A DNA stretch of 37,835 bases, from contig CAJWQR010000010.1 in assembly GCA_913045195.1 (NCBI GenBank), positions 1-37,835 of the forward strand. The letters run 5' to 3'. Made by a program: the position numbers and the translations under genes. The notes beneath the pieces were generated by a model. The model was not told the DNA's origin. It saw only the letters and a program-made list of their open reading frames with translations, and made no database searches. Of the stretch, positions 1,544-37,835 are shown piece by piece. Within the stretch, counting starts at the first letter, position 1. The number at the start of each line of letters is the position of its first letter. Source of the stretch: an uncultured Legionellales bacterium. Lineage in GTDB: Bacteria; Pseudomonadota; Gammaproteobacteria; Eutrophobiales; Eutrophobiaceae.

Positions 1544-1590
1544 TATTAAAAAAAATACTTGGAAAAATAATAATACTGGTTGTTTACTGA

Positions 1591-3514: not shown

Positions 3515-3518
3515 CGCG

Positions 3519-4007: not shown

Positions 4008-4012
4008 ATAAT

Positions 4013-9936: not shown

Positions 9937-9939
9937 TTT

Positions 9940-10245: not shown

Positions 10246-10248
10246 GGC

Positions 10249-17357: not shown

Positions 17358-17705
17358 ATGGATATTCTAAGCTCGTTTAATTATTGGGTAGTGGTTATTT
17401 TAATGATGATAGGATTTTACATCATTATTGCGAATAATAATCTCATAAAAAAGATAATCGGTATTAATATATTCCAAACCTCAATTTTTATTATGTTTAT
17501 CTCCATGGGTAAGGTTATAGATGGAACAGCACCAATATTAACTGAATCGAGCACATTATATTCAAGCCCATTACCTCATGTATTGATACTCACAGCGATT
17601 GTCGTGGGAATTTCAACAACGGCATTAGGACTTGCTATTATTATTCGTATTCATACCGCATTTGGTACGATTGAAGACGATAAAATACAGCAGGAGATCA
17701 AGTGA
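17358..17705 (+). CDS. MrpC/NuoK-like cation:proton antiporter subunit C
   Basis: 115 residues with three transmembrane helices (about 10-27, 32-50 and 73-98). The third helix, PLPHVLILTAIVVGISTTALGLAI, is characteristic of MrpC (MnhC) proteins rather than NuoK, and the two membrane glutamates of NuoK are absent. MrpC packs next to MrpD in Mrp Na+/H+ antiporters. Its stop overlaps the GTG start of the next gene (GTGA), which indicates translational coupling. The ATG has no close Shine-Dalgarno match; a GAGG lies 16 bases upstream. It opens a five-gene module of pump-type subunits. Confidence 0.85.
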   Translation: MDILSSFNYWVVVILMMIGFYIIIANNNLIKKIIGINIFQTSIFIMFISMGKVIDGTAPILTESSTLYSSPLPHVLILTAIVVGISTTALGLAIIIRIHTAFGTIEDDKIQQEIK

Positions 17706-19183: not shown

Positions 19184-19185
19184 TA

Positions 19186-20652: not shown

Positions 20653-20888
20653 AGCAGAGTTGGTTTTACAGAAAGTCTTCTATAAAGAAACTTTATATTT
20701 CTACACTAATTATTTTAGGAGCCGTTCTTTTTGTAGAATCTTTTATTGTATTACACCCTCATTTTAGTGTTGAGAAAATATTTGGATTTCATGCAGTTTT
20801 TGGATTTTTATCCTGTGTCGGATTGATTATTTTTGCAAAACTTCTCGGTTTTCTAGTGAAACGTAAGGATGATTACTATGACATGTAG
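20649..20888 (+). CDS. Small two-helix membrane protein of the Mrp-like module
   Basis: 79 residues with two predicted transmembrane helices (about 14-34 and 46-68). A short loop with HPHF lies between them and a charged tail KRKDDYYD ends the protein. I do not recognise a named family with certainty, but the gene is overlapped at both ends (ATGA with the gene before; its 3' end covers the start of the gene after), so it is surely translated as part of the module. It could be a structural adaptor for the antiporter-like subunits, in the way MrpF or MrpG serve in true Mrp complexes; that is inference. Confidence 0.75.
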   Translation: MKQSWFYRKSSIKKLYISTLIILGAVLFVESFIVLHPHFSVEKIFGFHAVFGFLSCVGLIIFAKLLGFLVKRKDDYYDM

Positions 20889-22555: not shown

Positions 22556-23542
22556 TTATTGATATTTCTCTTTATTAAACCAATCGACCGCATCTTTTAG
22601 ACCTTCAATGGCTGGGCGGGAATGATAGCCTAGTTTTGTCTTGGCTTTTTTACTTGAGAAGTACATTATTTTTTTTGATATTTTTACGCCATCAACCGTT
22701 GCGCGAGGTTCGTTCTGAGTAATAACCGCTATGCATTCCATTATCCAGGCAATCGGTAAAATTAAATTGTGAGGTAATTTAATTTTTGGTGGATCGATAT
22801 TTTCACTAATACATAGGTAATTAATTATTGCCTCTAATGTCATATCATCACCACCTAGGATATAACGCTCACCAATTTCACCTTTTTCCATTGCAAGCAA
22901 GTGACCTTGGGCTACATCATCAACATGAGCAATATTCAATCCAGTTTTTACATAAGCAGGCATTCGGTTTCGAATTGTATCTAGTATAATCTTTCCCGTT
23001 GGTGTTGGTTTTATATCACGTGGGCCAACAGGTGCAGAGGGGTTAACTATTGTTACAGGACATGATTGTTCTTTTATTAGAGCTTTGACTGCTTGTTCGG
23101 CTAAAAATTTTGAGCGCTTATAAATCCCCGTCATATCTTTAAGTGATGAAGGTGTCGTTTCATCTGCGGGACTACCATCTTCGTTCGTTCCCAGAGTAGC
23201 CACACTACTGGTGTAGACAATTTTTTCAACACCAGCATCAGTTGCTGCGAGGATTAAATTTTGTGTTCCATCGATATTAGTTTTATACATTTGTTCTGGG
23301 TCTGGAACCCATAATCGATAATCAGCAGCAACGTGAAATACTTGATCACAAGAATCAACAGCACGTTTTAATGATTCGGTATTTTGTAAATCGCCTTCAA
23401 TTATTTTAAGATCGAATTTTTCTAAATTACGCTTATCAGCATTCGGTCTTACTAAAACACATACATCATAGCCTTCACTAACAAGTAATCTTAAAACAGC
23501 AGATCCTAAAAATCCATTTGCCCCGGTTATTAATGCTTTCAT
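22556..23542 (-). CDS. hpnA: Hopanoid-associated sugar epimerase HpnA
   Basis: 328 residues, an NAD(P)-dependent extended short-chain dehydrogenase. The nucleotide-binding GANGFLG loop is at residues 7-13, and the catalytic Tyr141 and Lys145 are in GIYKRSKFLAEQ, with Ser residues at 112-113. The overall sequence fits HpnA, a protein found in hopanoid gene sets whose substrate is not established; a role in modifying a sugar-derived side chain is assumed from the family name. It is the last gene of the first hopanoid operon, 4 bases after the CDP-alcohol phosphatidyltransferase gene. It converges on the Mrp-like operon with no visible terminator. Confidence 0.88.
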   Translation of the reverse strand: MKALITGANGFLGSAVLRLLVSEGYDVCVLVRPNADKRNLEKFDLKIIEGDLQNTESLKRAVDSCDQVFHVAADYRLWVPDPEQMYKTNIDGTQNLILAATDAGVEKIVYTSSVATLGTNEDGSPADETTPSSLKDMTGIYKRSKFLAEQAVKALIKEQSCPVTIVNPSAPVGPRDIKPTPTGKIILDTIRNRMPAYVKTGLNIAHVDDVAQGHLLAMEKGEIGERYILGGDDMTLEAIINYLCISENIDPPKIKLPHNLILPIAWIMECIAVITQNEPRATVDGVKISKKIMYFSSKKAKTKLGYHSRPAIEGLKDAVDWFNKEKYQ

Positions 23543-23546
23543 GACA

Positions 23547-24155
23547 TTAATTTTTTAATTTTATGTAATCTTTTATTACGTAAAAAGAAAATATTGGTGC
23601 GCCTAAGGCTGCTGCAAACATAAAGTAATATTCCAAACGAAAGCAGCTAATGACAGGTAAGAGATATAATATGTCTTCAGCTTCAAATCCGATTTTATGC
23701 GGTTGTCGTGCATTTTTTTTACCTATATTCATTTCGATATAATTTCGCATATAAAATATTCCGGCAACTGATAAACCAGCAATAATTCCCATCATACACG
23801 CATAGACACCCAAATTAGTTTGCATTAAGCCAATACCGATACCTATGAATAGAAAAATATTCACCAATGCATCCGAGATAAGATCATAGACATGACCATT
23901 TGGACTAATTTCATTTTTTAGTCTTGCTAATTCACCATCAGCATGATCAAGAAAGTTTGAAATTACAAAACAAAAAGCACCAATATTGCTATATTTATAT
24001 TCACCGATTGCAAAAAAAATACCAGCAAAAACGCCAAACAATAGTCGTAATGATGTTAAATGATTTGGAGTGATAAATGTATTGCGAAGCGGGTATATTA
24101 ATTGGTATGCAATTTGCGCATCCCAGGGTCTATCATCTGATTGATCAATTAACAT
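23547..24155 (-). CDS. CDP-alcohol phosphatidyltransferase family protein, copy 1
   Basis: 202 residues with about six transmembrane helices. The family catalytic motif D-x2-DG-x2-AR-x8-G-x3-D-x3-D is complete: Asp70, Asp73, Gly74, Ala77-Arg78, Gly87, Asp91 and Asp95. Members transfer a phospho-alcohol between a CDP-linked donor and an acceptor alcohol, making phospholipids such as phosphatidylglycerol or phosphatidylinositol phosphate. The acceptor here is unknown. A second gene of the same type (33037-33621) shares the unusual tail motif GF-x3-DILYL. Four-base gaps to hpnN before and hpnA after place it firmly in the hopanoid operon, suggesting a hopanoid-linked or other polar-lipid reaction. 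Confidence 0.85.
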   Translation of the reverse strand: MLIDQSDDRPWDAQIAYQLIYPLRNTFITPNHLTSLRLLFGVFAGIFFAIGEYKYSNIGAFCFVISNFLDHADGELARLKNEISPNGHVYDLISDALVNIFLFIGIGIGLMQTNLGVYACMMGIIAGLSVAGIFYMRNYIEMNIGKKNARQPHKIGFEAEDILYLLPVISCFRLEYYFMFAAALGAPIFSFYVIKDYIKLKN

Positions 24156-24159
24156 ATTG

Positions 24160-26754
24160 TTAGTGTAATGAATTACGCCATATCAGAAATGAAGGTAATA
24201 TTATCATAGTTGCAACCATCATTGAGATTAACCCTAAAGATAAGAGTAGCCCCATACTTGCAGTTCCTTGATGCGATGAAAATGCTAAATTTCCAATACT
24301 AAATATGGTGGTTAGTGTGCTTACGATAACGCCTCGCGTTGTACTTGTTGTATAGATGTTAGTTTCTGAGTCTTTTACTTCGTAAAATCGTTCCGTAATA
24401 TGTATTCCGCTATCAACGCCAATACCAAGCAGTAAGGGTAGGCCAATAATATTGGCAAAATTCAATGGAATATTAAATAGAACCATAAATCCAAATGTAA
24501 AGGTAGTGCCAACTAATACAGAAGCAAGAATAATCATGGCATCGTATTTAATTTTTACTAATAGTATTAATAATAGCGTTATCACAATAAACGCATAGGT
24601 GAAAGCAGATTTGAAGGCATTCATTACTGCATTTCCCGCTTCAATACTTACAATAGGAGAACCAATTACGTTTTTATCGAACATTTGGAGTTGATTGACA
24701 AAGTTTTTCATCGAATTATTGTTGTTTAGATTCTCTTTGGGTAGAATTTTGATTCTATATTTCCCATTGTTTACCCAGCGTTGGTAAATTTCAGTTGGGA
24801 TATCTTCCAAAGTTACTTCCTTTGCATTTAACCCATCCGATAGAGTTTTTATTCTGCCAGATAAATTTTCTAGAAATTGACGTTCAATATCTACCAGATT
24901 CTTGAAATCTTTTTTATCCTCTAATAGTAATAATAAATTATCTATATTATTTTTTAGTATTTTTATCTCTTGATCAGACTCATCATTTTCAAATTCTTCT
25001 AATCTATTTTTTAGTTCTCGGACTGCATCTAATCTCTCATTATTATTAATTTTTGGTAAAAGTGGATTTGTGTTTAATTGCCCCATCAATAAACTCATCT
25101 CATCAATAATCATTAATTTATCTTCTTGTTCTTTGGGTAAAAAATCATTAATTGAGATAATTTTATCGACTAACGATAAGGACTCGATTTCTTTTTTATT
25201 AATATTAGTGCTTTCATTAGACTCTGATATTAAAATTGCTTCCCAGGGGGATGTCTTACTATTCTCGAGTAAATCAAGGTAGGTTTGTACAGACTCATTT
25301 TTGGGATCTTGAAGATTTAATCTATTTGTATCAAAACTTATTTTATTCATTTGGAATAATAATATGATGACTATTGATATTGTGATTAGTAGGGTGTGTT
25401 TTGCATATTTATAAGGAAGTGCACTTAGTGCTAGAAAGATATTATTTTTTATTAGTTTTTTATTATTTTCAAATACATTGCTAGGAATAAAACTTAATAG
25501 CGCTGGCAACAAAGTAAATGTAAGTATTAGGCTTATTATCATTCCCGTTCCTGCAATCCACCCCAGTTCAGCAACACCAATATAATTAGTTGGAATAAAG
25601 GCATAGAAGCCAATTGCAGTCGTCATTGCGCATAATATCAAAGGTTTTGAAATATATTTTATTGTATTGCCCAGGGCATTGATATTGTTTGATGGGTAAC
25701 TAGATTCTTCCTTAAATCGCAATGCTAGATGTATCGCAAAATCAATACCTAACCCAATATATAATACTGCAAAGGCAATAGATATTAGATTGAGTTTACC
25801 AATCGTTAATGATGCAAAAGCAGTAGTAATTATAAGTCCTAGTAATAATGTGACTAAACAGGCTAGCACCATACGTAAAGAACCTAACCCCAGAACCAAC
25901 ACCACTGAAACGAGAATAATTGATGCTATAATTGCTTTTATATTTGCATTAGAAACACTCTTTAATTCCTCATAGGCGAGCACCTCACCCCCGGTCAATC
26001 TTATATTAACTGAAGAGTTATTATATGGAGTGATTATTGATCTTATGTGATCAATGGTATTTTTTCCGGGCAATAACTCATTTTTTTCTTCATTAATTTG
26101 TAAAACGATAAATTCTCTATAGATATCTTCAGTATCATATTTCGGATTCATAAGTCTTTGCCATGAGACTGAATAATCTTTGTTCTTAAAAGCATGATTT
26201 ATTTCTAATAGTATTGGGTTAATATCGATATTTTTATCGTTTTTATTTGCATCAATCGCATCACCAAGCATTCCAAATAGTCCACGCAAACTTTGATCTT
26301 CTAATAAAGTTCCAAGAAAGGGTTGAATCTTTGCTAATCGATCTGACAAATCCTGCAATTCATCAAGATCAAGAAATAAAAATGAAGACTGTCTAAGGTA
26401 TGGAAGGATTTTAGGATAATAAATATCTTTTAGAATATCTGGACCGATATTGATAGCAGAATGAATTTCTTTTGCCGTATCACTCGCAAGATCAGGCGTT
26501 TCAGCCTCAATGACAATGAGAATATTATCTAGAAACTGGGGAAATAATTTTTCATACTCTATATCTAGTTGTCGCCAATGCAATTTTTCCGATAGCATAT
26601 CAGCCGTATTAGTACTAAAACCTAAATTACTTTTAATACAAAATAGCGATGCTATTGCAAGCGCAATTATTATGGCTATTATTAGAGACCGTTTTTTTTC
26701 AACGAGTTTAGTCCAGAAGATAATAAAATTGGTAAATTTAGACGTATTATTCAT
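24160..26754 (-). CDS. hpnN: Hopanoid transporter HpnN (RND/MMPL family)
   Basis: 864 residues of the RND superfamily, MMPL type: two repeats, each with one helix, a large periplasmic domain and five more helices. The first membrane block after the periplasmic domain begins with VVLVLGLGSLRMVLACLVTL and has GLGIDFAIHLALRF; the second has GIGVDSGIHITERFYEV, the matching proton-relay type motif. In Rhodopseudomonas, HpnN moves hopanoids from the inner to the outer membrane. The position in the hpn operon makes HpnN the best call rather than a general MMPL exporter. It lies 41 bases after the PhyH oxygenase gene. Confidence 0.88.
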   Translation of the reverse strand: MNNTSKFTNFIIFWTKLVEKKRSLIIAIIIALAIASLFCIKSNLGFSTNTADMLSEKLHWRQLDIEYEKLFPQFLDNILIVIEAETPDLASDTAKEIHSAINIGPDILKDIYYPKILPYLRQSSFLFLDLDELQDLSDRLAKIQPFLGTLLEDQSLRGLFGMLGDAIDANKNDKNIDINPILLEINHAFKNKDYSVSWQRLMNPKYDTEDIYREFIVLQINEEKNELLPGKNTIDHIRSIITPYNNSSVNIRLTGGEVLAYEELKSVSNANIKAIIASIILVSVVLVLGLGSLRMVLACLVTLLLGLIITTAFASLTIGKLNLISIAFAVLYIGLGIDFAIHLALRFKEESSYPSNNINALGNTIKYISKPLILCAMTTAIGFYAFIPTNYIGVAELGWIAGTGMIISLILTFTLLPALLSFIPSNVFENNKKLIKNNIFLALSALPYKYAKHTLLITISIVIILLFQMNKISFDTNRLNLQDPKNESVQTYLDLLENSKTSPWEAILISESNESTNINKKEIESLSLVDKIISINDFLPKEQEDKLMIIDEMSLLMGQLNTNPLLPKINNNERLDAVRELKNRLEEFENDESDQEIKILKNNIDNLLLLLEDKKDFKNLVDIERQFLENLSGRIKTLSDGLNAKEVTLEDIPTEIYQRWVNNGKYRIKILPKENLNNNNSMKNFVNQLQMFDKNVIGSPIVSIEAGNAVMNAFKSAFTYAFIVITLLLILLVKIKYDAMIILASVLVGTTFTFGFMVLFNIPLNFANIIGLPLLLGIGVDSGIHITERFYEVKDSETNIYTTSTTRGVIVSTLTTIFSIGNLAFSSHQGTASMGLLLSLGLISMMVATMIILPSFLIWRNSLH

Positions 26755-26795
26755 GCTTATTTAATCCAATTCACAGAGGCTATTTACAGTTTCAT

Positions 26796-27542
26796 CTATA
26801 CTCTGAAAACATATTTCTTGTTTGGTTCGCGTTCAATATCGGGAGGATAACTAAGACGTTTGTCTGCATAGTATTCCCGACGATGGTCTCCTTCAGATGC
26901 TGCATTATAAGTAACATATAGTACTCTGCGGCTTTTATTTGTCATGTTTGGTCCTGATCGATGAGGGGTATAAGAATTAAAAAAAATAGCATCACCTGGG
27001 TTAGTCGGTATAGAAACATAATCTAATCCATCTTCTTTAAGAGGTACCCATTGCTCTCCAATTAACCCTTTATTGTGATTTCCATGCGCTATTTCAAGAC
27101 AGCCATTCTTTATTGTGGAAGCGTCAATACTTACCAAAGCAGTGATATGCAATTTTGAATATCGATCCCAGCCCGCTTGAACATCTTGATGCGCTTTAAA
27201 ACCATCTCCTCCGGGCATTTTAAAATTAATCTTATCTTTGAATAGTATCGCTTCTTCATTAAATAGTTGGGTTGTTATTTTTTGAATTTCACCATTAATA
27301 AAAAGCGTACTAAATCCCTGATGAAATGGTTCAATATCTTCCATACGCGATAAGATACGCTTACCCGACTCGATTTTACTCTCCTCAAAATACATCATGT
27401 ATTTATTTGCGATTTCTGGGTAATGTGTAATCTCATCTGTCCATTGAATAATTTCATTCATACTTTCTTTGTTATATAAGCTATTAATTAGTAAGAATCC
27501 ATTTTCATTAAAATCATTAATCTGTTTTTCAGATAATTCCAT
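26796..27542 (-). CDS. PhyH-family Fe(II)/2-oxoglutarate dioxygenase
   Basis: 248 residues from ATG 27542; an in-frame TTG four codons upstream is a weaker alternative. The iron site H-x-D is His118 and Asp120 (AHQDVQAGW), the distal ligand is His194 (TPHRSGPN), and the 2-oxoglutarate arginine is probably Arg205 or Arg206. ITALVSIDASTIKNGCLEIAHGNH is the typical core strand region. The phytanoyl-CoA dioxygenase superfamily hydroxylates varied small molecules. The gene lies within the hopanoid operon, between hpnG and hpnN, so a hydroxylated hopanoid or linked lipid is a reasonable guess. Some relatives act on phosphonates or other metabolites, so the substrate stays open. Confidence 0.82.
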   Translation of the reverse strand: MELSEKQINDFNENGFLLINSLYNKESMNEIIQWTDEITHYPEIANKYMMYFEESKIESGKRILSRMEDIEPFHQGFSTLFINGEIQKITTQLFNEEAILFKDKINFKMPGGDGFKAHQDVQAGWDRYSKLHITALVSIDASTIKNGCLEIAHGNHNKGLIGEQWVPLKEDGLDYVSIPTNPGDAIFFNSYTPHRSGPNMTNKSRRVLYVTYNAASEGDHRREYYADKRLSYPPDIEREPNKKYVFRV

Positions 27543-27579
27543 ATTAAGCACCAATTTATTGTAAAAAGTTAATCAATAA

Positions 27580-28296
27580 TTAAGGGAAATAGAAAAATTT
27601 TTTCTTTCTAAGTTCCGTTGAAATATTAGTAAGTGTTGATAATGATTTTTTATAGTTTTTAGCCAACAAAATAATCTCATATATTTGAGTAGGATGAAAC
27701 AAGCAAAATACTAAAAATTTTCCTATATTAATGCGGCCAAAATTATCAATATTTTTTATCACAGCTTCTGGAATATTTGAATCAGCATTATCAGCAATCG
27801 CTCTAATAATAATAAAATCTAAATTACCGGCCATCGCAACCTCGGCTATTCCCGCACTCTCCATGTCAATTGCTAATGCTTTTGTTTTTCTGAATAGTTT
27901 CATTTTTTCTTCAAATGAGGCACATATTTTTTCAGTTGATACTATATTTCCATCAAATATTTTATATGACGAATTTTTAAAATGAGAAATTATTTTTTTT
28001 TGCCATTCGTAAGATGTGCTATAAATATTTTTATGATTTATTACTGATCTAGCTATTATTACATCACCTGATTTTATTGAATCACTTATTGCGCCAGCGA
28101 TTCCCCAGCTAATGAGGCCATCTACATTTAATTTAACTAGCTTTTTTGCGGCATTAAGACATGACTTATAACCAATACCAGAAATACATAAGAAAACATT
28201 TTTTTCTATTTCAATAGGTGCTTCAAAACTCAACTCATTAATCTGAAAGCATTTAGCCTCTGCAGGAAGAGCCGCGATAATACCAAGTTTCTTCAA
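27580..28296 (-). CDS. hpnG: Hopanoid-associated nucleosidase/phosphorylase HpnG
   Basis: 238 residues of the nucleoside phosphorylase fold. The catalytic-type Glu146 lies in AIDMESAGIAEVA and Asp169 in IRAIADNAD, as in 5'-methylthioadenosine/SAH nucleosidases. HpnG removes adenine from adenosylhopane on the way to bacteriohopanetetrol. The start is TTG 28296, overlapping the shc stop (TTGA); no in-frame ATG gives the conserved first strand KKLGIIAALPAEA. The enzyme acts on the product of HpnH, whose gene is not in the window. The tail after about residue 200 is lysine-rich and unremarkable. Confidence 0.88.
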   Translation of the reverse strand: MKKLGIIAALPAEAKCFQINELSFEAPIEIEKNVFLCISGIGYKSCLNAAKKLVKLNVDGLISWGIAGAISDSIKSGDVIIARSVINHKNIYSTSYEWQKKIISHFKNSSYKIFDGNIVSTEKICASFEEKMKLFRKTKALAIDMESAGIAEVAMAGNLDFIIIRAIADNADSNIPEAVIKNIDNFGRINIGKFLVFCLFHPTQIYEIILLAKNYKKSLSTLTNISTELRKKKFFYFP

Positions 28297-30242
28297 GTTA
28301 TTTTTTGAAGAAGATTTCTATAACGGGCAAGCGCCCAGAGTGGAAAATATTTTGAATATCCATGATATTTTAAGTAAAAAACACGCGGAAAGCCCGGGGC
28401 AGTATAACTATCATCATACCACTGACCATTCGATAATTGATTATTGAGTAGATAGTTAACCCCTTTTTTAACAACAATACTTTTTACTTCTCCAGTAGCT
28501 AATAAGGAAAGCAATGCCCAGGCAGTTTGAAATGCAGTACTTTTAAATGGTCGATAATGTTTTGGGGGGTAATAACTATCATTGCTTTCACCCCACCCCC
28601 CATCACTATTTTGTGTTTTCTGGAAATATTCAACGGTTTTTCTAATATAGGGTTGCTGTGGGTCTTCTCCTGAGATTTCAAGCGCTGTTAGTACAGACCA
28701 AGTGCCATAGATATAATTTGTGCCCCACCGACCAAACCATGAACCGTCTTCTTCTTGTTCAGATTTAATATAATTAACACCGTCGTTTATATTCTTTTCG
28801 TATATTTTTTTATCTGCAAGACTAAGTAACGCAATAGCGCGTCCGGTGACATCCGCGGTTGGTGGGTCAAGTAAAGCGCCATGGTCCGCAGATGGAATTT
28901 CGTTAAGGTAAAAATGTGTATTATTTATATCAAACGAACCAAACCCTCCGCCTCGTGACTGCATACCAGCAACCCAATTAGCTGCACGTTGTATTGGTTC
29001 AGAGTAACTTTTATTGTTTGTACGATGCATAGCCCAGGCAACCATAGATGTATCATCTAAGTCAGGATAATAATAATTACTATATTGAAATGCCCAACCA
29101 CCACCACTTAGCTCAGGTTTTTGAATACGCCAATCGCCGGGCTCATCACTTAATTGTTGTTCTTTTAACCAATTTAGTGCAGTTTCAATTTCTGTAGAGA
29201 CATGCTGCTTATATTCTGTTTCAATTAGTGCTTGGCTTACTAAAGCAGTATCCCAGATCGGCGATACACATGGTTGGCAATACATTGCATTACCACGCTG
29301 AGTTAACAATGCATCTATTGCATTGCGGGCTAATTTTCGTTCTGGAGTATCTTTAGAATAACCAAGAACCACTAATGATTCGTAGACGTTAACCATTGCA
29401 GGAAAAATACCACCAATTCCATATTTACCATTCATTCGTTCTAAAAACCATTGCTCACACTTACGTATGGAATAACGACGTATAAACGCAGGAACTAATT
29501 TTTCTGCTAAACGCCCAATATGATCGAGGATCAAAAACACACGTTTTAAGGGCGTAGTTACTTTAAAATAGTTTTGCTCGTCTTCTGCTGGAATAATAAA
29601 GAGCTCTCTTATATCGATACCACGTGGATTAGCTGCGCTTGGTTTCAAAGTGCATAGAATAAATAGTGGCACCATCACAGTTCGTGACCAATATGAAACT
29701 TTATCAATATGAAATGGAAACCATTTTGGTAAAATTATTACTTCAGCGGGTATGAAAGGTGTAGCTCTCCAAGGTACTTGGCCAAATAATGCCATCGTAA
29801 TACGCGTAAAAACATTACAATGTGCCGCGCCACCATGATTTAATATCATTTTTTTTGCGCGAATCATATGCTCTTCATGCTGATCATCGCCAATTAATTT
29901 CAAGGCAAAATAAGTTTTTACCGAACAACTTAAGTCAAAATTTCCACCCGTATAGAGAGACCACCCGCCTTCTTTATTTTGTTGGGTACGTAAGTACGTT
30001 GCAATTTTCTCTTCGGTTTTATCATTAATTTCACCGACAAAATGATTCATTAAGATATATTCAGCTGGAATTGTGCAATCAGCTTCAAGCTCATAAACCC
30101 AATGACCATCATCGTGTTGTTGTTCATGAAGTTTATTTTTAGCTGATTTTATCGATCTATCTAAATTCGATATTAAATCTTTTGAAAGCGAATCATTGCT
30201 GAATTGATTAAGTAGACTCTCGTTTTGAGTTTCTAGTGTCAT
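28293..30242 (-). CDS. shc: Squalene-hopene cyclase
   Basis: 649 residues, normal for the family. It cyclises squalene to hopene and hopanol at the inner membrane. The acid motif D-x-DDT is DLDDTS at 394-399, where most cyclases have DVDDTA. Several QW repeats are visible, such as QNKEGGW, QEEDGSW, QNSDGGWG and QLSNGQW, and the IWDTAL segment follows QPCVSP. The C-terminus ends GFPRVFYLKYHGYSKYFPLWAL, as expected of a membrane-bound cyclase. It is the committed enzyme of the hopanoid operon, between the squalene synthase (60 bases) and hpnG (4-base overlap). Also named hpnF. Confidence 0.96.
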   Translation of the reverse strand: MTLETQNESLLNQFSNDSLSKDLISNLDRSIKSAKNKLHEQQHDDGHWVYELEADCTIPAEYILMNHFVGEINDKTEEKIATYLRTQQNKEGGWSLYTGGNFDLSCSVKTYFALKLIGDDQHEEHMIRAKKMILNHGGAAHCNVFTRITMALFGQVPWRATPFIPAEVIILPKWFPFHIDKVSYWSRTVMVPLFILCTLKPSAANPRGIDIRELFIIPAEDEQNYFKVTTPLKRVFLILDHIGRLAEKLVPAFIRRYSIRKCEQWFLERMNGKYGIGGIFPAMVNVYESLVVLGYSKDTPERKLARNAIDALLTQRGNAMYCQPCVSPIWDTALVSQALIETEYKQHVSTEIETALNWLKEQQLSDEPGDWRIQKPELSGGGWAFQYSNYYYPDLDDTSMVAWAMHRTNNKSYSEPIQRAANWVAGMQSRGGGFGSFDINNTHFYLNEIPSADHGALLDPPTADVTGRAIALLSLADKKIYEKNINDGVNYIKSEQEEDGSWFGRWGTNYIYGTWSVLTALEISGEDPQQPYIRKTVEYFQKTQNSDGGWGESNDSYYPPKHYRPFKSTAFQTAWALLSLLATGEVKSIVVKKGVNYLLNNQLSNGQWYDDSYTAPGFPRVFYLKYHGYSKYFPLWALARYRNLLQKIT

Positions 30243-30302
30243 TTTTATTATACTTAGAGTATTCTTATTTTAGCACACAAAATATTTTTCGAGAGTTAGT
30301 TG

Positions 30303-31358
30303 TTAAAGTTTCTCATGAATATCTACACTAGGCAAATGGCGCCCACTAAATTTAAAAAGATATCTTAATATAGTGTCATTACTTACAAAAACACTTGTTA
30401 TTAAAGTCGTTATTCTAACATCATGACGACTAATTTTGACTTGTTTCCCATCAATAAAATCTGGTTTTTGTCTAATCTTTTCTAGCGTTAGTACTGCCAT
30501 TCCTATTGCCCATAAACAAAATTTTCGTAATCCTTTCTCTTTTGTTGGAATAAATAGGGTATAACGTAAAGCATTATTCAAGTGGTTATAGGCTATACCT
30601 AGTAATTCAATTAACGCATCATCAAAACCAGATTTATTGTTTCCAGGTATTTTATGTCTTATATCAATTCCATATTTTTTGAAGTGATCGCAAGGCAACC
30701 AACATGCTCCTCGTTTATGATCATCCCAAATATCTTTTAATATATTAGTCATCTGAAGGCCTTGCCCAAATGAAGCAGCTAATTTCATTAACTCATTTTG
30801 GTGAGCATCAATTTCCACCGAATAATCACAGAATAACTCCGTTAGCATTTCACCAACGATCCCAGCTACGTAGTAACAATATTCATTCATATCATCTAAG
30901 CTTTCTAACCCAGCGAGTGTCTCTATATTTTGATATTTAGCCATACCTTTACACATAATTGAAACACAACGTTCGAGCGCTTTTCTTTGACGATTATTAA
31001 AACTATGAGTTATACGTATAATTTTTTTTGTATTTGCGATTAAATCATGTTCAGCCTCAGTTGCTGTAGGCGACAACAAAGAAAATAATTTCTCAGAAAA
31101 TTCATCTACATTTTTATTTTTTTTGACAACATCAATGAATAGATCTGTATATTTTTTCTTTTTTTCAACAGACATAGATTTATCATCTTCAATAGTATCT
31201 GCAATACGACAAAGAAGATAAGCATTTGATATTACTATCTGTAGAGAATCAGGTAATTCAGGGATTGTTAATGCGAAAGTACGAGATACATGTTGTAGTA
31301 TCTCATGTTGATAACTAATATCGTCAAGATTTGTGTTAAACTCTTCTTTTGATTTCAT
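30303..31358 (-). CDS. Squalene synthase (farnesyl-diphosphate farnesyltransferase type)
   Basis: 351 residues from ATG 31358; an in-frame TTG at 31382 would add 8 residues. The two acidic motifs are DTIEDD (54-59) and DIWDD (209-213). Around them SRTFALTIPELP, YCYYVAGIVGEMLTELF and GLQMTNILKD resemble single-enzyme squalene synthases of the eukaryotic and Methylococcus type more than HpnC or HpnD, which have DDIADE-type motifs. It would join two farnesyl diphosphates and reduce presqualene diphosphate to squalene with NADPH. No hpnC, hpnD or hpnE is in the window, which fits a one-enzyme route. It is the first gene of the operon. Phytoene synthase activity cannot be excluded from sequence alone. 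Confidence 0.85.
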   Translation of the reverse strand: MKSKEEFNTNLDDISYQHEILQHVSRTFALTIPELPDSLQIVISNAYLLCRIADTIEDDKSMSVEKKKKYTDLFIDVVKKNKNVDEFSEKLFSLLSPTATEAEHDLIANTKKIIRITHSFNNRQRKALERCVSIMCKGMAKYQNIETLAGLESLDDMNEYCYYVAGIVGEMLTELFCDYSVEIDAHQNELMKLAASFGQGLQMTNILKDIWDDHKRGACWLPCDHFKKYGIDIRHKIPGNNKSGFDDALIELLGIAYNHLNNALRYTLFIPTKEKGLRKFCLWAIGMAVLTLEKIRQKPDFIDGKQVKISRHDVRITTLITSVFVSNDTILRYLFKFSGRHLPSVDIHEKL

Positions 31359-31393
31359 CAGAATTAATTTTCTCTTTACCAAAAAAACTTATT

Positions 31394-31413
31394 TATACAT
31401 TAATATATGTATA
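31394..31413. promoter_or_regulatory. Inverted repeat in the divergent squalene synthase/PPTase gap
   Basis: TATACAT (31394-31400) and ATGTATA (31407-31413) form a perfect 7-base inverted repeat with a 6-base spacer. It lies 36 bases before the squalene synthase ATG and 40 bases before the PPTase ATG, in the only gap from which both could be transcribed. The shape suits a dimeric repressor site or overlapping -10 regions. The region is very A+T-rich, so a chance palindrome is possible. Confidence 0.4.
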
Positions 31414-31452
31414 CGGATTAGGCAAAGAGTATTTCAAGATTAAGAATTACAT

Positions 31453-32181
31453 ATGAGAAATTCAATAAATAACACTACTCAATTTTATAATAATAATTTT
31501 AGTCTTTCTACAAAACGGGCTCATGTTTTTCTGATAAATTTTGACCTGTTTAATTCAAATGATTTTAAAGAATTTTTATCAAATGACGAAATTAAAAGAG
31601 CAAATAAAATAAAAATTGTCGAAAAAAGGCATCAGTTTATTATTTCAAGAGGAGCTGTAAAAAAATTGCTATCTACACTTTTAAGAAAGGAAGTTGACCA
31701 GATTGAGTTTTTATATAGTCAACATGGGAAGCCATTTATAAATGAAAAATACCATAATCATGTAATTGAGTTTAATATTTCCCACTCTGGTAAATATGGC
31801 CTCATAGCAATAACATTAGATAATAAAATTGGTGTTGATATTCAAAAAATCGATCATAATGTCAATTATAATTCACTATCAGCTCGTTTTTTTAGTGATA
31901 ATGAAAAGAATGAGTTAATGAAGTTAGATAAGAATAAAAGAAAAGATGCTTTTTATCTTGGGTGGGTCAGAAAAGAATCGTTTATAAAGGCAATAGGCAC
32001 GGGCGTAGCTTATGGTCTAGATCGCTTTAGTGTGTCACTAAATAAAAATGATAATACGAATATTGTTATCTCAGATTTTGAAAATAAAAAATGGCATTGT
32101 TACGATCTGATGGAATTTAATAACTATAAAACCGCATTGACTACATGCGTAAATAAAATAGATATCGTGATCTCGCAATAA
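31453..32181 (+). CDS. Sfp-type 4'-phosphopantetheinyl transferase
   Basis: 242 residues. These enzymes move phosphopantetheine from CoA to a serine of acyl or peptidyl carrier proteins. The second family motif, WVRKESFIKAIGTG, is intact (Trp171, Lys174, Glu175, Lys179). The first reads GVDIQ at 127-131: Asp129 is present but the usual metal-binding Glu is Gln131. FNISHSGKYGLIAI at about 107-120 is the conserved CoA-binding strand. The length fits the Sfp class rather than AcpS. No carrier-protein or synthase gene is in the window, so its target is unknown. It is divergent from the squalene synthase and precedes a methyltransferase by 65 bases. Confidence 0.87.
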   Translation: MRNSINNTTQFYNNNFSLSTKRAHVFLINFDLFNSNDFKEFLSNDEIKRANKIKIVEKRHQFIISRGAVKKLLSTLLRKEVDQIEFLYSQHGKPFINEKYHNHVIEFNISHSGKYGLIAITLDNKIGVDIQKIDHNVNYNSLSARFFSDNEKNELMKLDKNKRKDAFYLGWVRKESFIKAIGTGVAYGLDRFSVSLNKNDNTNIVISDFENKKWHCYDLMEFNNYKTALTTCVNKIDIVISQ

Positions 32182-32246
32182 CTTTATTTTTATTTATTAA
32201 AAATAATAGAAAATATTATTACCTTCGATTGCATGGAAATAAATTT

Positions 32247-33014
32247 ATGATCAATTGGTACGATCTGCCAGCCTATTACGATGTTTCATTTTCTTATGAA
32301 ATGTCAGATGAATTAGCCTTTCTTAAAAATGTTTTTAAAAAATATTCTAATTCATCTCAACCAAAATTACTTGAACCTGCTTGCGGAACAGGGCGTTTAA
32401 TGATTCCTCTTATACGGGAAGGTTTTGATTGTTCAGGTTTTGATCTAAATAGAAATGCACTCCTATACCTAGAAGAAAAGCTTAATAGAAATCAACTTCA
32501 TGCGAATGTTTTCTATGATGATATGATTAATTTTACAACACACAGAAAGTACGATGGAATTTATTGTACTGTTGATACGTTTAGACATCTTCTTACCGAG
32601 AAAGAAGCTAGACAGCATTTACTTGGCGTATCAAAAGCATTAAAAAAGAACGGAATATATGTTCTTGGTCTACATTTACTATCAAAAGAAAAAAAAATTG
32701 ATAGATTAACGCGCTGGACTGCAAGACGAGGACGTTTGACGATTAAAACTATAATGTCGATGATAAAGCTGGATAAGAACAAGAGAAGAGAGACACTAGA
32801 AGTAGAATTAAAAATAAAGGCTAAAGAGCGCAATAATTCATATACTTCTGTTTATCAGTTGAGAACATATACTTTATTTCAATTAATGAAAATTTTAAAA
32901 AGCTTGCCAGAGTTAGAAATTATTAGTGTTTATGATGAGTATTATGATTTGTCAAATCCTATAATGCTCGATTCAGGATCTGATTATGCTGTTTTATTAC
33001 TACGTAAAAAATAA
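32247..33014 (+). CDS. Class I SAM-dependent methyltransferase
   Basis: 255 residues from ATG 32247; the in-frame TTG at 32229 is a poorer start. The SAM-binding motif I is LLEPACGTGRLMIPL (about residues 41-55), followed by the acidic end of strand 2 in CSGFDLNRNAL and a motif IV-like stretch YDGIYCTVDTFRHL. The C-terminal half, from about residue 150, is rich in Lys and Arg and would form the substrate region. No transmembrane segment is evident. The substrate cannot be named. It follows the PPTase on the same strand, 65 bases away, and converges on the second CDP-alcohol phosphatidyltransferase with 22 bases between stops. Confidence 0.82.
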   Translation: MINWYDLPAYYDVSFSYEMSDELAFLKNVFKKYSNSSQPKLLEPACGTGRLMIPLIREGFDCSGFDLNRNALLYLEEKLNRNQLHANVFYDDMINFTTHRKYDGIYCTVDTFRHLLTEKEARQHLLGVSKALKKNGIYVLGLHLLSKEKKIDRLTRWTARRGRLTIKTIMSMIKLDKNKRRETLEVELKIKAKERNNSYTSVYQLRTYTLFQLMKILKSLPELEIISVYDEYYDLSNPIMLDSGSDYAVLLLRKK

Positions 33015-33036
33015 TATTTTTTATATCTCAAGATTA

Positions 33037-33621
33037 TCATAGATATTTTTTTGAAGAGTACCATGTAAGAATCGCAAAAATTGGCGCCCCAAAAGAGGCG
33101 CCAATAAGAAATGGTAAATGCCAGTTTAACCAGACGATTGGGGCGAAGAGATATAAAATATCATCAAAATCGAATCCAGCAATACCCGGATAAGCTTTCC
33201 CCCCAGTATTCTTTTTTTTCTGGTCAATAATTTCAGCGTATATCCCAGTAAAAAAAACACCAGCTGCAGCGCTGAATCCCATAAATACTGACCAGTAACT
33301 AGACAGGTTGTCTTGCAGGTTTATTCCTATTGCTATAAAGAAGAGCGATGTAATAATTGTATCGGAGTAGCAATCAAATTTATGACCCCATTCACTGGTT
33401 TTACCCGAGACTCTAGCAAGCTCACCATCGGCACGATCAAGAAAAGTGGATAGTACCCAAAAAATACCGCCAATAAGATTTATTTTTAATGCAAAAGCAA
33501 CGCATGCAACTAACCCTGTGATTAGACGAATTATTGTTACATGATTAGGAGAGACTGATGTATTTACCAATGGAAGAATACAAATGCGAGCAATTTTATG
33601 TGTCCAGGAATCACCAATCAT
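33037..33621 (-). CDS. CDP-alcohol phosphatidyltransferase family protein, copy 2
   Basis: 194 residues with about six transmembrane helices. The complete catalytic motif is Asp62, Asp65, Gly66, Ala69-Arg70, Gly79, Asp83 and Asp87 (DRADGELAR, then WGHKFDCYSD). It shares with copy 1 the SPNH/TPNH-type opening, the DGELAR core and a late GFDFDDILYL motif, so the two are paralogues, but they differ clearly over most positions. It is the last gene of the second hopanoid operon, two bases after hpnK. The phospho-alcohol product is unknown; the location suggests it acts on hopanoid-related or membrane-lipid substrates. Confidence 0.85.
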   Translation of the reverse strand: MIGDSWTHKIARICILPLVNTSVSPNHVTIIRLITGLVACVAFALKINLIGGIFWVLSTFLDRADGELARVSGKTSEWGHKFDCYSDTIITSLFFIAIGINLQDNLSSYWSVFMGFSAAAGVFFTGIYAEIIDQKKKNTGGKAYPGIAGFDFDDILYLFAPIVWLNWHLPFLIGASFGAPIFAILTWYSSKKYL

Positions 33622-33623: not shown

Positions 33624-34472
33624 TTATGAATTAAAACCAGAAAGTTCGATATTAAATTTATCAATTGTTCGTTTTGTGCGAGCATGTATTAGTGCTTTAT
33701 ATTCTGCTTCAAATTCATATTTATATGATTCAGAATAATCACTATGATTATTTTTAGTGGCGGGATGCGTATAGATTTCAGTTATGCCATTAGTAATATG
33801 AGGGATAATACGTATTAATTTTTCAATATTCATATGTCCGCTATCATGTAATCCATAAATAGTGTCATTAAAATTAATATTATTCTTTATGCATTTTTTT
33901 TTCATAGAAAACGTAAAGAACATAAAAAATATCCACCGAAGATGACGTACTATAAATTCTTTTTTATTATTAATAATAGAATTTAGCGGCGGTTCATTCG
34001 GAATACGAATTGCCGTTAAATCATAGTCACGCCCTATCTCAATAATTAAGTTAAATACTGTAGGATGTAGATGCATATGATTATGCGCATTTACATGATC
34101 TAATTTTAAACCAGTTTTTTTATATGCCTCAAATTGAGCACGAATTTCTCTTTTTAATTGCTTTCTCGCTTTAATATTAAAAAAGAAGTTTATACCACTA
34201 TAAAATTTATTTATCTGAAATTCACCAGCATTATTTACTAGGTTCGGAATTTCCGACGCAGATAATTTTGCTATCCCATTACTTAGAACAAGATGTAGGC
34301 CTACATTTAATTTAGGAAATTTTTTTGCATTCTCTATTGCATGATCAACGGCAGGAGCAGCCACCATTAAACTTGTAGTAGTGAGAATACCTTTTGTAAA
34401 AGATTTTATTACGGCATCGTTTATTGAAATGGAGAGCCCAAAATCATCGCCTGTAACAATAAGTTTCTTCAG
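33624..34472 (-). CDS. hpnK: Hopanoid deacetylase HpnK (YdjC/ChbG family), CTG start
   Basis: 282 residues when started at CTG 34472. HpnK removes the acetyl group from N-acetylglucosaminyl-bacteriohopanetetrol after HpnI. The first 35 codons, before the first in-frame ATG (34367), encode KKLIVTGDDFGLSISINDAV, the family's metal-binding opening, so the frame must begin upstream of that ATG. An in-frame TAG occurs six codons before the CTG, and no ATG, GTG or TTG lies between. GGAG sits 8 bases before the CTG, and CTGA overlaps the hpnJ stop. Other metal-site histidines are His60 and the HVNAHNHMHLHP cluster at 126-136. The function is solid; the exact start codon is inferred. Confidence 0.87.
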   Translation of the reverse strand: MKKLIVTGDDFGLSISINDAVIKSFTKGILTTTSLMVAAPAVDHAIENAKKFPKLNVGLHLVLSNGIAKLSASEIPNLVNNAGEFQINKFYSGINFFFNIKARKQLKREIRAQFEAYKKTGLKLDHVNAHNHMHLHPTVFNLIIEIGRDYDLTAIRIPNEPPLNSIINNKKEFIVRHLRWIFFMFFTFSMKKKCIKNNINFNDTIYGLHDSGHMNIEKLIRIIPHITNGITEIYTHPATKNNHSDYSESYKYEFEAEYKALIHARTKRTIDKFNIELSGFNS

Positions 34473-35890
34473 GCCGCATTCTCCCGTCTAAATAGAAATT
34501 TGAAGAATTCGATACCTTCTCGTAACCGACGTTTCATTATTTCCCAATCACCACACATCTCAAAAAATAATATAGTCATTTTTTTTGGCCGAAAATAGAA
34601 ACGTTTGTAGAAATTATCAACAGCTTCAAAAATTTCTTTACTCGATAGGTGCGGATAGCTCAACACTGAGTGTTGCACACCATTATCGCCAACTAATTTT
34701 TCGTCAGCCACTAACCAGCCATTTTCAATCGCTTGTTTGTACAAAAGAGTGCCAGGATAAGCGGCGGGTAGTGACACTTGAATAGTTTGCGGATTTAATT
34801 CTTGCGCATAATTTATACTTTGCTCAATAGTCTCGATTGTTTCGCCTGGCAAACCGACAATAAATGTTCCATGAATAAGAATTCCGAGTTTATGACAGTC
34901 ACTGGTGAATTGACGCGCTATATCAAGGCGGATACCTTTTTTAATGTTGATTAATATTTCTTTATTACCTGACTCATAGCCAACTAGTAATAGACGAAGC
35001 CCATTGTCTTTCATGATTTTTAGAGTTTCATAAGGAACATTTGCTTTGGCATTACACGACCAAGTGATGCCAAGCTTTCCAATTTCTTTTGCTAGAGCTT
35101 CTACATGTTGAATATTGTCTGTCAACGTATCATCATCAAAAAAGAACTCTTTTATCTCTGGAAAATTATCACGAGCCCATAACACTTCAGCGGCAATATT
35201 TTCAACAGAACGTGTACGGTAGTTGTGTCCAGATATTGTTTGTGGCCATAAGCAAAAGGAACAGCGTGATTTGCAGCCGCGTCCAGTGTAAAAGGACATA
35301 TAAGGGTGCAACATATAACCATTATAATAATCTGACGTAACAAGATTATCTTTATATATTTTCGTTACCCACGGAAGACTATCCATATCTTCAATCAACG
35401 CACGTGATTTATTGTGAATAGGTTTATTATTTTTTTTGTAAGTCAATCCGTCAATTTTTTCTAGTATTTTTCCCTCTGCTATTTCTTTTATTGTAAAGTC
35501 GAATTCGTTTCCAGCAACAAAATCAATAGCATCAGATGCTAAAATACAATGATCGGGATTAATAGCAACATGCGCACCACAAAAACCTATAATTAAATTT
35601 TTATTCTCATATTTAAATGCCTCTGCGATTTTGACATCGTTTAGAAATGATGGGGTACTGGTATACAAAACTAGTAATTCATATTCTTTAGCCAGCGGTA
35701 AAATATCTTCTATTGTTATACCGCGAGCAGGTGCATCTATTAAGCGACTACCTTCAACTAGTGCTGCAAGCTGAGCAAGCCACGTTGGGTACCAGAATGA
35801 TTTTACTTCACGAGTGCATTGGTAGCGCGATCCAGCACCGCCGTCATATCCATTATATGATGGTGGGTTAAGAAATAGTGTATTTAACAT
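34469..35890 (-). CDS. hpnJ: Hopanoid radical SAM enzyme HpnJ
   Basis: 473 residues. The N-terminal region (about 1-150) is a B12-binding-like domain, and the radical SAM domain follows with its [4Fe-4S] motif Cys206-x3-Cys210-x2-Cys213 (GCKSRCSFCLWP). HpnJ rearranges the glucosamine of BHT glucosamine to the cyclitol ether. FFFDDDTLTDN and GTFIVGLPGETIETIEQSI are further radical SAM landmarks. Its stop overlaps the hpnK start, and hpnI lies 31 bases upstream, so the three genes of head-group construction are adjacent. The length fits the family. Confidence 0.92.
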   Translation of the reverse strand: MLNTLFLNPPSYNGYDGGAGSRYQCTREVKSFWYPTWLAQLAALVEGSRLIDAPARGITIEDILPLAKEYELLVLYTSTPSFLNDVKIAEAFKYENKNLIIGFCGAHVAINPDHCILASDAIDFVAGNEFDFTIKEIAEGKILEKIDGLTYKKNNKPIHNKSRALIEDMDSLPWVTKIYKDNLVTSDYYNGYMLHPYMSFYTGRGCKSRCSFCLWPQTISGHNYRTRSVENIAAEVLWARDNFPEIKEFFFDDDTLTDNIQHVEALAKEIGKLGITWSCNAKANVPYETLKIMKDNGLRLLLVGYESGNKEILINIKKGIRLDIARQFTSDCHKLGILIHGTFIVGLPGETIETIEQSINYAQELNPQTIQVSLPAAYPGTLLYKQAIENGWLVADEKLVGDNGVQHSVLSYPHLSSKEIFEAVDNFYKRFYFRPKKMTILFFEMCGDWEIMKRRLREGIEFFKFLFRRENAA

Positions 35891-35921: not shown

Positions 35922-37148
35922 TTATGATGATAGTAAATCGGAAATTTTCTCAGTAGTTTTAGGATCGTCGGAGGATATTATTTTCTTTTCATGCATCAAG
36001 CCTAAATGATCAACGACGAATGTATTATTACGCCATCTCACTGAATTTCCAATGTAACTAATAATTCTAATACAAAAGGATAATATATCACGTAGCGGGA
36101 TTAACCAAATTTCAGTAATTCTTTTTGAATTAATCATTTTGTTTGCACTATTGTGCAAAAGCACTCTCAAGGAAAGTGTTATGACTATTGGTAAATACAA
36201 CAAAATTAAACTTTCTGCTGTAATGAATAGAATAATGCCGGTAAAAATACTCAATACAAGACTATCCGTTAGGAATGTAAGCGCATAACCAAGTGGTTCT
36301 ATTCGTTTTAATGTTCTTGCCCAGCGTAATTCATGCAATATTAAATTTTTAAACGAGGTTTCTTCTATTATATTTTCAATAATGTAATCTGATAGATATA
36401 TTTGATAACCAAGATTCGAAATTAATTTGCCCAATATATAGTCATCAGCAAGATGATTAGAGAATGATTCAAATCCACCAATTTTTTTTAAAATATTACG
36501 TTTAACAATCATTGTTGCACCAAGACAATATTTCATTGGTTGTAATATTCGGGATATTAGGACAGACGGTAAAAACCAGTTATTAATAAACATAGCATTA
36601 AGTTTCGAGGCTATTTTATCATTAGCAATGCCATTATAAAGACAGGTAACGGCACCTATCTTTGTGTCAGTAAATGGGCTTATTACTCGAGTTAGAAAAT
36701 TTTTAGAAACACGCATATCACTATCGGCAATAAGTATGTATTCGTGTTTTATATAGGGGGACATATTAATTAAATTTGATACTTTATGGTTTGTTCCATG
36801 ACGTTCAGTACTGATAATGTAACTTACATCTGATTTACTAAATTCTTTTGTAATTTCTTTAACAACAGAAAGTGCTGGATCGTTTTTATCTTGTATTCCA
36901 AATATAACTTGGTATTGAGGATAATCTTGCTGACAAAAGCTACGGAGATTATCTAACATGTCAGGATCAAGCCCATAGATTGGTTTTAAGATTGTGACAG
37001 ATGGATGAAAGTTTTTTATTATCGTTTTTTTATTTTTTTTGTAATTGAAACGATCAACAGCAATTAAAGCAAAGAAAAGGTATCCAAGAGAAAAAAGCCA
37101 TAAAGATACGGCTCCAATTAGAATTATATTAAGAAAGTCAATCTGCAT
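35922..37148 (-). CDS. hpnI: Hopanoid glycosyltransferase HpnI
   Basis: 408 residues of the ceramide-glucosyltransferase-like GT2/GT21 type. One N-terminal helix (about 8-30) is followed by the catalytic domain with Asp142-x-Asp144 (ADSDMRV), a later NHLADDYILG acidic motif, and the ELRWARTLKR acceptor motif. Two or three more helices lie near residues 290-335. HpnI adds N-acetylglucosamine to bacteriohopanetetrol, the first step to BHT glucosamine and cyclitol ether. It is upstream of hpnJ and hpnK in the same direction, 208 bases after hpnL. Confidence 0.9.
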   Translation of the reverse strand: MQIDFLNIILIGAVSLWLFSLGYLFFALIAVDRFNYKKNKKTIIKNFHPSVTILKPIYGLDPDMLDNLRSFCQQDYPQYQVIFGIQDKNDPALSVVKEITKEFSKSDVSYIISTERHGTNHKVSNLINMSPYIKHEYILIADSDMRVSKNFLTRVISPFTDTKIGAVTCLYNGIANDKIASKLNAMFINNWFLPSVLISRILQPMKYCLGATMIVKRNILKKIGGFESFSNHLADDYILGKLISNLGYQIYLSDYIIENIIEETSFKNLILHELRWARTLKRIEPLGYALTFLTDSLVLSIFTGIILFITAESLILLYLPIVITLSLRVLLHNSANKMINSKRITEIWLIPLRDILSFCIRIISYIGNSVRWRNNTFVVDHLGLMHEKKIISSDDPKTTEKISDLLSS

Positions 37149-37356: not shown

Positions 37357-37835
37357 TCATATTTTCTTACGTAAATAGTTAACCTCAACATGTTGCCAAT
37401 AAAGTAATCCAGGGATATCAATTACTAGCTCTCGAACTCGAGTTGCCAAGGATAGTGCGAGTGAGAATTCAGGAGTCAAACCAACTAAAACACCTAACAT
37501 CAAGTAACCACCTTCTTGTACTCCATATCCATTCGGTATAATAAAGGCAAGGTCGGTAATGATCGAGGTAAGGCTTTTTAGCATTAAAGCTTCAATAAGG
37601 CTGATGGGATGTCCTAGTAAGTAGCAAGCTAGCCAGACCTCAGATGTTTGCAATATAAGTCCTAACGTTCGCCATAAAATAGAAAGAATAAATCGTTTTT
37701 TATTACCATAGATTTCTTTTACAAGCCCATCAACATCACTTGCTTTCAGTGTAATTTCTGCCCAATTATCAGAGGTATTGAATTTACCAACCATCTTTGC
37801 AAAAAAACTAAATAATCCGGCTCGTTGAAAAAAGA
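37357..37835 (-). CDS. hpnL: HpnL-type membrane protein, C-terminal part
   Basis: The frame is open to the right edge, so the start is outside; 158 residues are visible. It has about four hydrophobic segments. The stretch IIPNGYGVQEGGYLMLGVLVGL, followed by ATRVRELVIDIPGLLYWQ, is characteristic of the HpnL branch of the lysylphosphatidylglycerol-synthase transmembrane family. HpnL is carried in many hopanoid gene sets and has been proposed to move the lipid across the membrane, without firm proof. It precedes hpnI in the same direction. An ATG at 37794 lies inside the conserved domain and should not be taken as the start. Confidence 0.82.
   Translation of the reverse strand, partial: FFQRAGLFSFFAKMVGKFNTSDNWAEITLKASDVDGLVKEIYGNKKRFILSILWRTLGLILQTSEVWLACYLLGHPISLIEALMLKSLTSIITDLAFIIPNGYGVQEGGYLMLGVLVGLTPEFSLALSLATRVRELVIDIPGLLYWQHVEVNYLRKKI

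Follow-up and report, generated by a model that had tools for sequence, protein, structure and literature searches.

A pair of CDP-alcohol phosphotransferases in the hopanoid locus of an uncultured Legionellales bacterium, and a proposed phosphonate-hopanoid pathway

Hopanoids rank among the major lipids of bacterial membranes and serve as geological biomarkers. Two genes, P1 and P2, encoding proteins of the CDP-alcohol phosphotransferase type, lie in the hopanoid (hpn) locus of an uncultured Legionellales bacterium (GenBank assembly GCA_913045195.1); the window analysed here is the whole 37,835-nucleotide stretch of contig CAJWQR010000010.1 (C10), positions 1 to 37,835. The best explanation of these genes is that they specify two isozymes belonging to a CDP-alcohol phosphotransferase branch at work in a combined phosphonate-hopanoid pathway: P1 and P2 probably move a group of the 2-aminoethylphosphonate (AEP) type, carried as a CMP conjugate, onto hopanoids that differ between the two enzymes. 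(AEP is the phosphonate analogue of phosphoethanolamine.)

The transferase domain of DIPPS is an enzyme that uses a CDP-alcohol as head-group donor. IPCT-DIPPS (PDB 4mnd; NF041135) and AF2299 (4o6m) are the nearest solved relatives of P1 and P2, in sequence as in fold, and the cytidylyltransferase that is fused to DIPPS resembles the NTP transferase (NTPT) of the present system. They differ in that P1 and P2 are unfused and score 36-46 bits with a model whose cut-off is 580, and the DIPPS acceptor is inositol phosphate, whereas no inositol genes are seen at loci of the P1/P2 type. CEPT1/CPT1 (8gyw, 8ero, 9uet) offer another likeness, matching by profile and in the chemistry predicted (a lipid alcohol receives a CMP-activated head group), but they are eukaryotic proteins of 380-406 amino acids with diacylglycerol as acceptor, while P1 and P2 have about 200 residues and are tied to hopanoid genes.

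Three described gene systems come close in another way. In the PntC pathway, AEP is activated by CTP to CMP-AEP, and PepM, which is defined by the motif EDKxxxxxNS, is fused to a MobA-like cytidylyltransferase; the neighbourhoods presented in the available portion of that paper (PMC6697681) have LicD-like phosphotransferases or glycosyltransferases instead, with no hopanoid link. A "phosphonolipid" cluster of Nostoc and Burkholderia (PMC5987646, Fig. 7) lists CDP-APT, an OG-Fe(II) oxidase, NTPT, pepM, ppd, AEPT and hpnL; its text has 0 matches for "hopan", whereas here the transferase stands inside core hopanoid operons. The link between pepM and hopene cyclase was itself noticed earlier, in a 2021 account of a hybrid cluster in Roseomonas that suggested an undiscovered terpene-phosphonate; as far as the accessible part of that account goes (PMC8776678), it concerns one bacterial family, names no transferase, donor or acceptor, and has no co-occurrence test. 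The superfamily is already known; what is new is the pair of substrates predicted here, together with the conserved supercluster.

A first-pass annotation of the window had picked out both transferase reading frames, their full catalytic motif, a shared tail and gaps of 2-4 bases, and all of these are confirmed (Table 1). In a Pfam profile scan both proteins exceed the PF01066 gathering cut-off of 22 bits. The motif DxxDGxxAR-x8-GxxxDxxxD is complete in P1 (from residue 70: DHADGELARLKNEISPNGHVYDLISD) and in P2 (from residue 62: DRADGELARVSGKTSEWGHKFDCYSD), and in an alignment of 47 relatives its D, G and R positions never vary, nor do the D and Y of the tail GFxxxDILYL (GFEAEDILYL at residue 156 of P1, GFDFDDILYL at residue 149 of P2). 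P1 and P2 share 35% identity across the whole alignment and fall into two separate clades of the tree. Four bases separate hpnN from P1, four P1 from hpnA, and two hpnK from P2, a spacing that suggests co-expression with the hopanoid genes.

What kind of enzymes are these? AlphaFold2 models of P1 (pLDDT 88.4, pTM 0.84) and P2 (pLDDT 90.4) have a six-helix membrane fold with a juxtamembrane helix, and Foldseek returns AF2299 as the top PDB fold for both (TM-score by query 0.79 for P1 and 0.66 for P2). By fold, AF2299 and IPCT-DIPPS come first among solved structures, then PIPS, which ranks above CEPT1; the profile ranking runs AF2299, DIPPS, CEPT1/CPT1, then PIPS and PgsA. By profile, P1 and P2 are nearer to the enzymes that use a CDP-head-group donor than to the users of CDP-diacylglycerol (CDP-DAG). 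The free-standing NTPT of the same genome is nearest to the cytidylyltransferase half of the bifunctional IPCT-DIPPS model; NTPT and P1/P2 thus match the two halves of IPCT-DIPPS, so that the donor-making enzyme and the transferase are counterparts of a pair already known in fused form. This pairing, together with the profile and fold rankings, favours a CMP-activated head group as the putative donor and a lipid as the acceptor.

P1 and P2 are not ordinary PgsA or PssA. The NCBIfam models for PgsA, PssA, PIPS and archaetidylinositol phosphate synthase (AIPS) reach 22-54 bits, where the cut-offs are 107-180 (the highest is NF040950, with 54 bits and a cut-off of 180; PgsA and PssA reach 26, PIPS 34), and the genome has a separate PgsA-like gene on contig C65 (PF01066, 136.8 bits) and a PssA-like gene on contig C1. 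An inositol-type transferase was likewise considered and rejected: the top NCBIfam matches are inositol enzymes, but they lie far under cut-off and no inositol genes were seen at the loci.

The position of the two genes is conserved. Within the order, 53 genomes, all of one family, were compared, with gene orders read from fetched regions. P1-clade genes sit between hpnN and hpnA in the relatives examined, and P2-clade genes come after hpnK, in the hpnI-J-K module, in all 11 P2-clade loci read; placement by chance does not account for this. Each transferase clade stays with its own hopanoid tailoring module. There is a third clade, P3 (about 230 amino acids), which is found in the hpnI-J-K module, divergent beside hpnL or adjoining hpnI (L065:16611-17294, L066:17422, L081:4490, L094:15235 and others). 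The assembled genome from which the window comes yielded no non-housekeeping PF01066 gene besides P1 and P2. P3 is missing from the window, in part at least because contig C10 stops within hpnL; P3 would fall beyond that end.

(Another clade, P5, sister to these, is located away from hopanoid loci, in L076, L077, L079, L083, L087, L089, L096 and L103. It often adjoins an HpnA-like SDR of about 328 amino acids, a ketopantoate-reductase-like protein of 336, or both.)

How widely do transferase, phosphonate genes and hopanoid genes travel together? In a sample of 352 genomes, at least 90% complete and drawn evenly from the class, a strong transferase match is present in 20, PepM in 28 and hopene cyclase in 50. 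(A technical note: "strong" means E <=1e-30 with the P1 profile, PepM was counted over its cut-off and hopene cyclase at E <=1e-60; the transferase threshold was chosen after viewing the list, and weaker matches exist, such as 7e-20 in G124 and 3.6e-14 in G139.) In each of the 20 transferase-positive genomes, which span ten families, PepM and hopene cyclase are both present (Fisher 1.5e-26 for PepM and 2.3e-19 for the cyclase, with the families not being independent draws). Conversely, 20 of the 21 genomes with both PepM and cyclase have a strong transferase, and the exception, G022, carries a transferase of the P3 type next to hpnI-J-K. A strong transferase is absent from all 29 genomes that have the cyclase but no PepM and from all seven that have PepM but no cyclase, the latter contrast being in part one between PepM subtypes, since five of the seven have a shorter PepM frame (436-444 amino acids). 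Eighteen of the 20 strong matches adjoin hpn or AEP genes. In the Cyanobacteria 3 of 214 genomes have the strong transferase, and in all three PepM, as a 551-residue fusion, lies within about 4 kb. The 28 genomes behind the named loci were selected by having the transferase; 27 of them pass the cyclase cut-off and 26 that of PepM. Two outcomes that the first-pass annotation had singled out as fatal to its reading, homologues located mainly away from hopanoid genes and identity with ordinary phosphatidylglycerophosphate synthases, are thus not what was found; to that extent its reading is supported, the two genes being dedicated, non-housekeeping transferases tied to hopanoid genes.

The phosphonate genes of the genome lie on other contigs. 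Contig C58 has the order phosphoglucose isomerase (PGI)-NTPT-PepM/NTPT-Ppd (PepM 385 bits, Ppd 427 bits), and its PepM carries the defining motif as EDKQFPKANS. Contig C3 starts inside AEPT and continues with DXS, HpnH (544 bits) and HpnB (390 bits); AEPT scores 339 bits, under its cut-off of 360.8, and the gene is truncated by the contig end. Relatives show the C58-C3 order unbroken, so that the AEP operon borders a second hopanoid locus, hpnH-hpnB. With SHC (squalene-hopene cyclase), HpnH and the hpn tailoring genes, the C35 hopanoid gene set is present, and the gene sets for AEP and hopanoids are thus housed in one genome. PepM is above cut-off in 43 of the 53 genomes of the order. A MobA-like NTPT stands beside PepM and a second such domain is fused to it; their role as the cytidylyltransferase for CMP-AEP is putative. 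The AEP operon lies outside the window, which is why a phosphonate donor went unforeseen in the first-pass annotation.

(In this order the neighbours of the AEP operon are phosphoglucose isomerase, frequently a serine/threonine kinase that has a cNMP-binding domain, and DXS; in L219 these genes are at 1457-3040 (+), 3046-4353 (-) and 9607-11508 (-).)

Beyond the order, when 84,980 genomes were scanned for the P1 family, matches came from Nostoc and other cyanobacteria, from Paraburkholderia and Nevskia, and from many gammaproteobacterial metagenome-assembled genomes. In many of these loci (those of Nostoc and Nevskia, for example) the transferase is followed by a MobA-like NTPT, a PepM-NTPT fusion, Ppd and AEPT, and the scanned examples pass the NCBIfam cut-offs: 382-398 bits for the fusion (319.55), 448 for Ppd (312.5) and 424 for AEPT (360.8). 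Some AEP loci also contain hpnJ, hpnI, hpnK or squalene synthase (SQS) genes (L134, L121, L140, L142), and L148 and L149 have the order SHC-HpnG-HpnA-PT-...-PepM-Ppd-AEPT, in which PT is the phosphotransferase. In several loci of the class sample the two gene sets form a supercluster in one piece: HpnN-PT-HpnA-HpnL-oxygenase-NTPT-PepM-Ppd-AEPT in L281, HpnH-AEPT-Ppd-PepM-NTPT-HpnL-...-HpnA-PT-HpnN-HpnG-SHC in L282, and PT-AEPT-Ppd-PepM-NTPT-HpnL-HpnA-HpnN-HpnG-SHC-SQS-HpnH in L294; L285, L286 and L287 are further continuous examples. In those Paraburkholderia loci that were read, an hpnL-like gene and an NTP transferase come after the transferase; no PepM was recognised near the transferase in those loci, and PepM is present in all three Paraburkholderia genomes searched.

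(In cyanobacterial phosphonate-hopanoid loci such as L134, near hpnJ/hpnI and the transferase, there are also a B12-binding radical SAM protein (L134:8346-9983) and a 286-residue protein (L134:4262-5122). The best NCBIfam match of the former is a P-methyltransferase family, at 77 bits and far under cut-off; the latter has no Pfam match.)

Because the transferase group appears with both hopanoid and AEP genes in the surveyed genomes, it probably attaches the AEP group to hopanoids, and we infer a donor, a hopanoid acceptor, a division of labour between P1 and P2 and a hydroxylation step in the following scheme. 1) PepM, Ppd and AEPT would convert phosphoenolpyruvate to AEP. 2) The adjacent MobA-type cytidylyltransferase, free-standing, fused to PepM, or both, would make CMP-AEP. 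3) A PhyH-type oxygenase may hydroxylate the phosphonate to hydroxy-AEP: the oxygenase at 26796-27554 has a methylphosphonate hydroxylase, PhnY*, as its best model, with a score below cut-off, and its relatives sit within phosphonate-hopanoid loci L297, L285, L287 and L134, making it a possible candidate for a phosphonate hydroxylase. 4) The two-metal DxxDGxxAR...D site of the membrane transferase would move the phosphonyl group from CMP to a hopanoid hydroxyl, releasing CMP. The acceptor of P1 would be a hopanoid handled by HpnN/HpnA, such as bacteriohopanetetrol, and that of P2 would be a product of the HpnI-HpnK-HpnJ branch, which yields glucosamine and cyclitol-ether hopanoids (PMC12583986). 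A still broader proposal, that a widespread two-part pathway exists in which a dedicated transferase clade puts AEP or hydroxy-AEP on hopanoids by means of two or three site-specific isozymes per genome (P1 for the HpnN/HpnA hopanoid, P2 and P3 for HpnI-K-J head groups), could be right or wrong with about equal likelihood. The first-pass annotation had suggested a phospho-linked hopanoid or a dedicated polar lipid. A phosphorus-linked hopanoid is indeed the best reading, but it is a CMP-activated phosphonate that is indicated as the group transferred, with the lipid as acceptor. Nothing was found to support a sugar alcohol derived from HpnA as acceptor, as had been surmised: in several superclusters the transferase stands beside AEPT or HpnJ, not HpnA.

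Several observations weigh against AEP-bearing hopanoids as the products. The AEP operon of this genome is not beside P1 or P2. The transferases of G011 and G047, both in the class sample, lie away from hpn and AEP genes; G064/G088 has a transferase without PepM; and G018 and G032, whose assemblies are incomplete, have PepM and HpnH with no transferase match. The shorter PepM frames of the PepM-only genomes belong here too. No report of a phosphonate-bearing hopanoid was found in the literature searched, which took in few subscription papers, and "phosphono" is absent from a broad 2025 survey of alphaproteobacterial hopanoids (PMC12583986).

The main rival acceptor is diacylglycerol. P1 and P2 would then move AEP from CMP-AEP to diacylglycerol (or alkylacylglycerol), yielding an ordinary phosphonolipid, with hopanoids made alongside for the same membrane. 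Gene linkage is also compatible with a phosphonolipid and a hopanoid that are merely used together, which is one more point against a hopanoid acceptor; the proposal also accounts for the PepM link, fits the resemblance to CEPT1/CPT1, and agrees with the phosphonolipid synthesis proposed for the homologous Nostoc and Burkholderia clusters (PMC5987646, Fig. 7). It is nevertheless rather unlikely, and leaves the dependence on hopene cyclase unexplained: a strong transferase is found in 0 of 7 PepM-positive genomes that lack hopene cyclase (subject to the caveat about PepM subtypes), and two or three paralogues per genome, each at a different hopanoid module, would be needless for a single diacylglycerol product. 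Closer to the first-pass idea is an enzyme that takes a phosphatidyl group from CDP-DAG and attaches it to a hopanoid polyol, or else to a polar alcohol whose synthesis accompanies that of hopanoids. PF01066 does include CDP-DAG enzymes, and the DxxDGxxAR...D motif cannot tell donors apart, but scores with the PgsA, PssA, PIPS and AIPS models fall far short of the cut-offs and the CDP-head-group enzymes rank first in both profile and fold comparisons; a CDP-DAG donor also leaves the tight association with PepM and the cytidylyltransferase (NTPT) unexplained, and is the less likely for it, so that we regard this as quite improbable. That P1 and P2 are housekeeping enzymes of PgsA/PssA type sitting in the hpn locus by chance, an idea to which weak TIGR00560 and TIGR00473 matches (24.8-26.4 bits, against cut-offs of about 107-109) lend themselves, is hardly credible given the separate PgsA-like and PssA-like genes and a location in hpn loci that is strictly conserved.

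Table 1. Features of the hopanoid locus in the window, with profile matches
Feature	Coordinates	Strand	Evidence
hpnA (NAD epimerase-like)	22556..23542	-	TIGR03466 475 bits, cut-off 367.65
P1, CDP-alcohol phosphotransferase-like, 202 aa, DHADGELAR type	23547..24155	-	PF01066 56.6 bits
hpnN (hopanoid RND transporter)	24160..26754	-	TIGR03480 816.6 bits, cut-off 751.85
PhyH-type 2-oxoglutarate oxygenase	26796..27554	-	NF052437 198.2 bits, cut-off 500; PF05721 77.4 bits
hpnG-like phosphorylase	27580..28296	-	TIGR03468 169.9 bits, just under cut-off 187.1
squalene-hopene cyclase (SHC)	28293..30242	-	PF13243 430.5, PF13249 402, TIGR01507 788 bits
squalene synthase-like	30303..31382	-	TIGR01559 124 bits, below cut-off 286.75
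P2, CDP-alcohol phosphotransferase-like, 194 aa, DRADGELAR type	33037..33621	-	PF01066 49.5 bits
hpnK (deacetylase)	33624..34367	-	TIGR03473 273.1 bits, cut-off 232.6
hpnJ (radical SAM)	34469..35890	-	TIGR03471 742 bits, cut-off 577.6
hpnI (glycosyltransferase)	35922..37148	-	TIGR03472 393.9 bits, cut-off 310
hpnL, C-terminal part, contig ends inside gene	37357..37794	-	PF03706 47.8 bits, model positions 198-296/302

The neighbours HpnA, HpnN, HpnI, HpnJ and HpnK all pass their NCBIfam cut-offs. The HpnK frame aligns from model position 36 onward only, so that translation probably begins upstream of the first ATG, or else the N-terminus is shortened. Relatives carry a full-length hpnL at the matching place. 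On the opposite strand within the locus lie genes for a 4'-phosphopantetheinyl transferase and a SAM methyltransferase (31453-32181 and 32229-33014, +), a pair conserved in the genus and in g4, another genus of the same family. A run of Mrp/NDH-like membrane subunits (17358-22542, +) borders the locus, as it does elsewhere in the genus and in L071/L111.

What would follow if P1 and P2 do put AEP on hopanoids? The functions of hpnA, hpnB and hpnL are listed as not established (PMC12583986), and the CDP-alcohol transferases of clusters labelled "phosphonolipid" would acquire a role. The phosphonate branch would add a membrane-lipid class that is new, and its zwitterionic hopanoids would withstand phospholipases and phosphatases. 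The proposal, which is directly testable in cultured strains (Nostoc punctiforme and Paraburkholderia xenovorans are two that hold the system), would account for the joint occurrence of PepM and hopene cyclase in several bacterial families, and it would link hopanoids to phosphorus cycling.

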